Shown here in pieces: positions 57,203 through 59,529 of a DNA stretch of 64,000 nucleotides. The DNA is from Flavobacteriales bacterium (lineage in GTDB: Bacteria; Bacteroidota; Bacteroidia; Flavobacteriales_G; Salibacteraceae), in assembly GCA_018660685.1 (NCBI GenBank), contig JABJJW010000001.1, positions 62,001 to 126,000 of the forward strand, in the 5' to 3' direction. Numbering within the stretch: the stretch's first letter is position 1; every line of letters begins with the position of its first letter. The position numbers were made by a program, and so were the translations under genes. Below the pieces are notes generated by a model, which was given only the letters and a program-made list of their open reading frames with translations, was not told the origin of the DNA and searched no databases.

Positions 57203-57246
57203 AACTGTTTTTTCAGTTTTATAACTGTTTTTTCAGTTTATATTTG
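57203..57246 (+). promoter_or_regulatory. Duplicated BlaI-type operators overlapping a -7 element
   Basis: AACTGTTTTTTCAGTTT occurs twice, at 57203-57219 and 57223-57239, exactly 20 bp apart. Each is an inverted repeat AACTG-N6-CAGTT. The second runs into TATATTTG (57239-57246), a perfect TAnnTTTG. The blaI ATG is only 5 bases later, so the transcript may be almost leaderless. The layout fits binding of two BlaI dimers side by side to block RNA polymerase. Confidence 0.7.
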
Positions 57247-57250
57247 TGGT

Positions 57251-57619
57251 ATGGAAAATTTGACGCCTACTGAAGAGCGGATCATGCAGGTCATTTGGAA
57301 GCTTGATAGAGCATTTGTCAAGGATATTATCGAGCTCATGCCAGAGCCTAAACCGCCATACAACACAGTCTCTTCAGTCGTAAGATTGCTGGAGAAAAAA
57401 GAGTTCTTGGGTCACAAGGCATACGGAAAGACATATGAATACTTTCCGATCATTTCCATCGAAGAGTACTCCAAACGCACTTTTAAAACGCTCCTTGGAG
57501 ACTATTTTAATGGCTCCTTTCAGTCCCTCGTTTCATTCATGGTCAGTGAAGAGAACCTCAGCGACAAGGATCTGAAGGAGATCGGTGCGATTTTAAAAAC
57601 AGGCCAACAAAAATCTTGA
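57251..57619 (+). CDS. BlaI/MecI/CopY family transcriptional repressor
   Basis: 122 aa from the ATG at 57251, chosen because the family begins at LTPTEERIMQVIWKL. The winged helix includes AFVKDIIELMPEPKPPYNTV and SSVVRLLEKKEFLGHKAYGK. The C-terminal half forms the dimerisation domain (FKTLLGDYFNGSFQSLVSFM). BlaI proteins repress their operon until cleaved through the partner M56 protease. Two matching inverted repeats overlap the promoter, and the M56 fusion gene starts 4 bp downstream. Confidence 0.93.
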   Translation: MENLTPTEERIMQVIWKLDRAFVKDIIELMPEPKPPYNTVSSVVRLLEKKEFLGHKAYGKTYEYFPIISIEEYSKRTFKTLLGDYFNGSFQSLVSFMVSEENLSDKDLKEIGAILKTGQQKS

Positions 57620-57623
57620 GCAT

Positions 57624-59529
57624 ATGATGAGTCATTGGACAATCCTCTTCTTGGAATTTCAATTCTGCCTCTTTGCGTTTGGCCTATTCTACTGGTCGGC
57701 TCTTTCCAAAATGAATCACTACCGATGGAAACGTATTTACATTCTGTCGGCCGTGGTCATGTTACTGATGATTCCAAACTTTCACTACACAGTTGTCGAA
57801 TCAACTGCTCCTTTGGATGTGACTATTGATCTTGGCGCCATTCTCAATTCCGTTGAGGCAGGTGATGCAATTGTCGAACCAGAGAATCAACTCAGCGTAC
57901 AAACTTTCAATTACACTTCGCTTCTCTCGTACGTAATTCTTCTATTGCTTGGGTTTGGTTTGGTTCCTCATCTACGTTGTCAGATGGATATCTCTAAAAA
58001 CTAAACTCCGGAAGTACTCCTACTTCGATTCAAAGCTTGATGCTTTTATCACCGACGAGTTCGAGATGGCTTTTGCATTTGCTGGCTCGGTATATGTCCC
58101 TCCAACCTTTGATGAGATGGTGCCGGCCGAACGAAGCGCCATCCTAAACCATGAACGACGACACGTAAAATTCAACCATGAATTTGACAAATGGCTGATG
58201 AATATGGCAAGGGTCATACTTTGGATCAATCCCATATTTAGATATCTGAGCAATGAGCTTTCAGCAATCCATGAATTTGAAGCGGACGATGATTTTGCTC
58301 CAGGATATGACCGCATACTTTACAGCGAGTTGTTGCTCAAGCTCCAATTCCAAAAATCTGATCTGCCATTGATGGCTTCTCCCTTCTCCCAAAGTTTGAT
58401 TAAAAAGCGCGTACGACAGCTAAATCAACCAAAATCAAATACCATGAAAAAAGGATTGTTTTTCCTTTCATTACCCATGATTATCATGCTCGTATATGCG
58501 TTTTCAATTGAGACCGTCAACAAACCGCATCAGGAAGAAAGCCAAGTGCTAACTCCCCATTTTGTTTCACCTATCAACCTTTCAAAAGTCACGAGGTATT
58601 CCTCTTTCGGAATGCGAAAAGGGCCAGGATCTGCTGAGTCTCAAATGCACGAAGGACTTGACCTGGCGGCAGAAGTTGGAACCGATGTCTTTGCTTCTAG
58701 CACGGGCACCGTAGTCTTGGTAGAACACTACTCAACTGGCCATGGCCTTCGAGTTGGCTTCGACCATGCTGACAGTTTCGAGACGCGTTACTCCCATCTG
58801 GATCAAATACTAGTTGTAGAGGGGCAAAATGTTGAATCAGGCCAATTAATTGGAAAATGTGGGACTTCTGGAAAAAGCACTGGGCCACATCTGCATTTTG
58901 AAATTCTCAAGAACGAAGAACATGTAGATCCAGAGAAATTTTTAAGTCTGAGCCTGCTAGATTTCGGAGCCAGTGATCTTAGTAAAGAGAAGTTTCTGGT
59001 CATCATCGATCCAGCTCATGGAGGCAAGGACAATGGGGTTCAAGTCGGGGATCACACCGAAAAGGACCTAAGCCTGAAGTATGCATTGACTCTTAGAGAC
59101 GAACTCAAAGTTTTAGGCATATCATCCATAATCTTGAGAGAAGACGATCGGAGCATGTCTCTCGAACAGAGAACCATGGCCACCTATGGCACTGAGAATG
59201 TACTCTACCTTTCTCTCCACTTTAATGAAAGTAAATCTGACTCCGCCCAAGGAATTGAACTCTACCTGAGCGAACAAGAAGATGTAAACCAGCTAAAAAG
59301 TAAGCTGTACGGAGAGATTTTTGGGCAATTAGCTGTCGCCAAGGACATTCAATTCAGAGGGGTAAAAACAGCCGGATTTTACGTGGTCAAGAACAGTAAT
59401 AGCCCTGCTATTCTCATGGAGCTTGGGTTCATGAGTTCTCCAGAAGAGCTCGAGAAAATATTGGACGATCAATACCGCAAAAAGGTCTGTTCAGTTATTG
59501 CTGAGAGTACGAACTTGTACGTGAACTAG
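57624..59529 (+). CDS. M56 (BlaR1-type) protease fused to M23 endopeptidase and Amidase_3 domains, frameshifted
   Basis: The 5' frame (57624-58004) encodes N-terminal helices; the second frame is open from 57949 to 59529. Removing one G from GGG at 57951-57953 joins them as LLLGLVWFLIYVV, giving 634 aa. Positions in that protein: M56 zinc motif HERRH at 176-180 and EFEADD downstream; membrane helix about 275-295; M23 with HEGLD (H342, D346) and HLH (422-424); Amidase_3 with H465 (DPAHGG), E479, H532 and catalytic E599 (LMELGF). All expected catalytic residues are present. The gene follows blaI by 4 bp. The M23 and amidase parts occupy the place where BlaR1 carries its penicillin sensor. Whether the break is a mutation, an error or recoding is open. 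Confidence 0.8.

Follow-up and report, generated by a model that had tools for sequence, protein, structure and literature searches.

The window analysed here (the whole 64,000-nucleotide stretch of a 2.58 Mb Flavobacteriales genome) contains a small repressor gene, blaI, preceded by two identical inverted repeats and a Bacteroidota-type promoter element and followed by the gene of a BlaR1-like membrane peptidase. Upstream and divergent lie cbb3 oxidase genes, identified by eye from their open frames, and a cyclophilin gene lies downstream. The features of the locus are the following:

57203 to 57219, + strand: O2, the putative distal operator, AACTG-N6-CAGTT plus T, assigned from sequence and from the conserved 20-bp pairing 5' of blaI; dyad centre at 57210.5, about -40 relative to the predicted transcription start
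57223 to 57239, + strand: O1, the putative proximal operator, the same 17 bases as O2, abutting the -7 box, assigned from sequence and from its conserved position just 5' of TAnnTTTG; dyad centre at 57230.5, about -20 relative to the predicted transcription start
57239 to 57246, + strand: -7 promoter element TATATTTG (TAnnTTTG, Bacteroidota), assigned from sequence and from the conserved 4-nt gap to the ATG
57251, + strand: predicted transcription start, the A of the ATG
57251 to 57619, + strand: blaI, BlaI/MecI-type winged-helix repressor of 122 aa (PF03965), aligning with MecI and BlaI of solved structures
57624 to 58004, + strand: N-terminal membrane part of the BlaR1-like M56 protein, frame 2, ending early by frameshift
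57949 to 59529, + strand: remainder of the BlaR1-like protein, with M56 peptidase (HERRH), M23 endopeptidase and Amidase_3 domains (Pfam)

BlaI-type repressors control penicillin resistance in staphylococci, and BlaI-M56 pairs are common in Bacteroidota. In the literature that we searched, which covered few subscription papers, we found no operators described for the Bacteroidota pairs. The product of 57251 to 57619 carries the Penicillinase_R winged-helix fold (PF03965, E 6e-28, 98 bits against a cut-off of 22.6) and is the single PF03965 protein of the genome; its nearest solved relatives are MecI (1okr) and BlaI (1sd4). The C-terminal CxC metal motif of CopY and CopR is absent from its 122-aa sequence, which has no cysteine at all.

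The adjoining gene encodes a BlaR1/MecR1-type M56 membrane peptidase whose C-terminal part contains HERRH, with Pfam matches to PF05569 (3e-11), PF01551 (4e-29) and PF01520 (2e-37). An M56 gene lies downstream of blaI in nearly all loci examined. Within the window gene (57624 to 59529) the frame changes between the membrane part and the peptidase part, and both parts are in one frame in four relatives (G005, G007, G008, in which part of the M56 gene reads N, and G015). This frameshift may be an assembly error or the mark of a decaying gene; in the latter case the strain may have lost a working circuit. The fusion of a BlaR1-type protease to two murein hydrolase domains (M23 and amidase) was seen in five genomes, the window's and those of the same four relatives, and about 11 other loci have M56 fused only to Amidase_3. 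No beta-lactamase or PBP2a gene was found under the same operator among the neighbouring open frames of the window, and the operator pair itself is unique genome-wide.

The 17-base sequence AACTGTTTTTTCAGTTT is found at 57203-57219 and again at 57223-57239, in a register of 20 bp, and each copy is an AACTG-N6-CAGTT dyad. Both copies, which an earlier note on this DNA had described, were read directly at these coordinates. The same note placed them exactly two helical turns apart, which is loose: at 10.5 bp per turn, 20 bp corresponds to 1.9 turns, about 34 degrees short, so that the sites nonetheless lie on nearly the same face, and two BlaI dimers on one face of the DNA would make reasonable geometric sense. 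The single palindrome occurs at chance level and the twin pair does not. Single AACTG-type sites with two mismatches numbered 32 in the window against 30.4 expected, which is background, and exact single sites genome-wide numbered 7 against 9 for a reversed control; the five that fall outside the pair are all within long open frames, with no TAnnTTTG nearby. The 37-bp twin unit is unique in the genome even when three mismatches are allowed (control, 0), and a relaxed twin pattern gave, besides 57203-57239, just weak two-mismatch hits in fewer places than its control. The pair is judged not to be chance because of this uniqueness and because the same pair, spaced by 20 bp, is found again at blaI loci across the phylum.

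We examined the recurrence of the pair in 112 distinct blaI genes gathered from Bacteroidota. Strict ACT-N8-AGT pairs at exactly 20 bp were present at 48 of the 112 loci (shuffle mean 0.02, maximum 1). When the half-site was allowed to vary (AACTA, AACTG, AACTT or AACGT, with up to one mismatch), AAC-N10-GTT pairs at 20 bp were found in 84 of 110 upstream regions (shuffle mean 0.74, maximum 3), and 15 loci displayed triple sites in the 20-bp register. In most relatives the central six bases differ between the two copies while the half-sites and the register are kept, which points to selection on the half-sites and their protein contacts. Saprospiraceae loci (for example L063, L069 and L072) have AACGT/ACGTT half-sites in 20-bp arrays 5' of blaI, which suggests a third operator type.

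The blaI ATG occupies 57251-57253, and four bases separate it from the end of TATATTTG; the perfect -7 element abutting the second operator was correctly noticed earlier, although its distance to the ATG had been given as five bases. This gap is exactly 4 nt in 19 loci, against a box background further upstream of 5 per 15,324 positions. It has been reported that the TAnnTTTG box of F. psychrophilum (Flavobacterium) sits at -12 to -5 (PMC9723704), and this position together with the 4-nt gap places the predicted start on the A of the ATG. A promoter previously called near-leaderless can therefore be described more sharply, and we read blaI-blaR1 as a leaderless and autorepressed operon. If so, the operator, the -7 box and the start codon fit within about 50 bp, and the operator dyads cover the region that polymerase must occupy. 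Leaderless spacing is uncommon in Bacteroidota, where it concerns a minority of mRNAs: 5.5% of mapped mRNAs are leaderless in F. psychrophilum (PMC9723704), and about 3.7% of 5' UTRs are shorter than 10 nt in B. thetaiotaomicron (PMC7366714). We discarded the alternative start at ATG 57164, with which the operators would fall within the coding sequence, because the alignment with relatives supports 57251 and the 4-nt gap is common to them.

Searches that started from the operator led back to the same gene. A pair search in 100 genomes returned 23 distinct promoters, 22 of them just upstream of blaI and one running off a contig end, and a search for exact AACTA pairs in 395 genomes returned 53 promoters in 52 genomes, of which 51 lead a blaI operon; reversed-pattern controls gave zero in both searches. 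At these 51 promoters blaI usually follows directly; in G182 it stands behind a small open frame and in G310 behind a permease gene. The two remaining exact pairs are a long hairpin-like site (L184/L219) and, in G337, an intergenic site that showed no -7 box. Two-mismatch AACTG pairs without BlaI in the 395 genomes (L164, L167, L168 and L170) were set down to chance because two mismatches had been allowed. Nearly all operator-first matches lie at blaI, so that the pair almost serves as a signature for this operon and is not the marker of a large regulon. Within the window's own genome, the scan for AACTG-N6-CAGTT that the earlier note expected to reveal the whole regulon uncovered no wider one: the five other exact single sites are inside genes and at chance level, and by pair only the blaI promoter matched, leaving the operon as the only target found. 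In G310 (L202, contig C45, 3493-7999) a twin-operator leaderless promoter precedes a gene for a MacB-like ABC permease, then blaI, then an M56-Amidase_3 gene, and this permease is a candidate structural target of the circuit.

The variable base of the half-site was found to track the BlaI protein. AACTA half-sites accompany Thr42 of BlaI, and AACTG or AACTT accompany Ser42: Thr42 is present in the BlaI of all 51 exact AACTA promoters, and Ser42 at the G-type promoters that were found by operator beside blaI. Residue 42 aligns with Thr47 of MecI, within the stretch Ser41-Asn56 described as the recognition helix (PMC5341023), and the base that matches the variable position is A in the mec/bla consensus. 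Six genomes (G005, G007, G015, G097, G238 and G275) carry both BlaI types, each with the matching operator. One locus in G007 (L122, C21:37000-50000) contains two blaI-M56 cassettes with different operator types, on opposite strands and no more than about 6 kb apart. Exceptions are L115, where Ser goes with AACTA, and mixed sites in Saprospiraceae. A phylogeny-corrected test counted two independent changes on supported branches and four on the whole tree, too few for significance. What supports the link is therefore the six two-paralogue genomes and its uniformity; we regard it as a strong lead, not as proof.

These findings make it very probable, as judged from sequence, that the twin sites are operators of the BlaI encoded directly downstream, as the earlier note proposed, since the 20-bp pair precedes blaI in most of the Bacteroidota loci examined and occurs almost nowhere else in the genomes searched. 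Two BlaI dimers would bind as neighbours, offset by 20 bp and on almost the same side of the helix, and would block the sigma-A promoter from which blaI-blaR1(M56) is transcribed. The M56-M23-Amidase_3 partner, facing the cell wall, would sense the state of the envelope or peptidoglycan and inactivate BlaI, which would release the operon. A peptidoglycan dipeptide is reported to dislodge BlaI from its operator in B. licheniformis (PMC3305447). Seen in this light, the joining of M56 to murein hydrolases is suggestive, and it may tie a cell-wall signal to BlaI release. Contact between the neighbouring dimers should not be assumed, because no cooperativity was seen for CopY on its two operators (PMC7253601). 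It counts against this reading that the promoter is not leaderless in many blaI loci, that the operator departs from the staphylococcal consensus within the dyad, and that the window's M56 gene is frameshifted.

Three other explanations deserve weighing. A wider regulon that takes in the divergent oxidase genes, or genes for the cell wall at other places, would draw on the oxidase operon that starts upstream in the window and on the ABC permease ahead of blaI in G310, but we consider it unlikely given that the pair is unique in its genome, that other single sites lie within genes, and that operator-first matches fall almost all at blaI operons. The dyads could also serve a different regulator, or act in the mRNA as a hairpin or attenuator, and stand before blaI by coincidence; each site is indeed palindromic, BlaI binding is a prediction, and one AACTA-type pair (L184/L219) has a single long hairpin form. 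We hold this to be very unlikely: the sites lie 5' of the predicted transcript start and would therefore be absent from the mRNA, blaI accompanies the pair at 51 of the 53 promoters found by operator alone in 395 genomes, and a different recognition helix in BlaI goes along with a different half-site base, even within single genomes. That the two 17-mers are identical in the window could reflect a recent, functionless tandem duplication of a 20-bp unit, an idea that is scarcely credible when the central six bases differ in most relatives and the half-sites and spacing are kept.

Control of the operon by its own BlaI is thus the reading that we prefer, and twin-operator blaI has the look of a self-regulating switch that is widespread and uses a sequence code of its own. 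Our results suggest that Bacteroidota BlaI systems monitor the cell wall and that control of beta-lactamases is not their main role. More tentatively, at somewhat less than even chances, there may be a phylum-wide BlaI circuit apart from beta-lactamase control, with phased 20-bp arrays on a leaderless autorepressed promoter, a one-residue recognition code (Ser/Thr42) that separates paralogues sharing a cell, and a sensor protease that in some lineages carries murein hydrolase domains; if true, the state of the cell wall feeds directly into the BlaI switch. The analysis gives an operator consensus for Bacteroidota BlaI and a way to find target operons from DNA alone, and it yields the simple prediction that BlaI residue 42 pairs with the half-site base.

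The window's -7 box matches the consensus of Bacteroidota sigma-A promoters (TAnnTTTG), whereas its leaderless spacing is uncommon among mapped mRNAs. The CopY/CopR copper repressors are related winged-helix proteins whose genes have a tandem pair of operators upstream in 67 of 88 cases (PMC7253601), but they differ in their metal-sensing CxC tail, copper genes, TACANNTGTA core and lack of an M56 partner. This core is absent here, as the window has TGTTTTTTCA at those positions, with the outer ACT/AGT kept and the inner CA/TG absent; TACANNTGTA characterizes the Gram-positive operators known so far (the staphylococcal consensus) and does not define the BlaI protein family as such. The staphylococcal and Bacillus BlaI/MecI systems (the bla and mec divergons) share with the window the repressor family, the adjoining gene for an M56 (BlaR1-type) membrane protein and dyad operators that overlap the repressor's own promoter, of which B. 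licheniformis BlaI uses three (PMC3305447), and the usual Bacteroidota half-site (ACTA) matches the mec/bla consensus at dyad distances 4, 5 and 7. Unlike them, the window operon is without a beta-lactamase or PBP gene, Bacteroidota sites stand in a fixed 20-bp head-to-tail register with ACTG as the window's half-site, the promoter is of the Bacteroidota type and predicted to be leaderless, and the window's sensor bears M23 and amidase domains.
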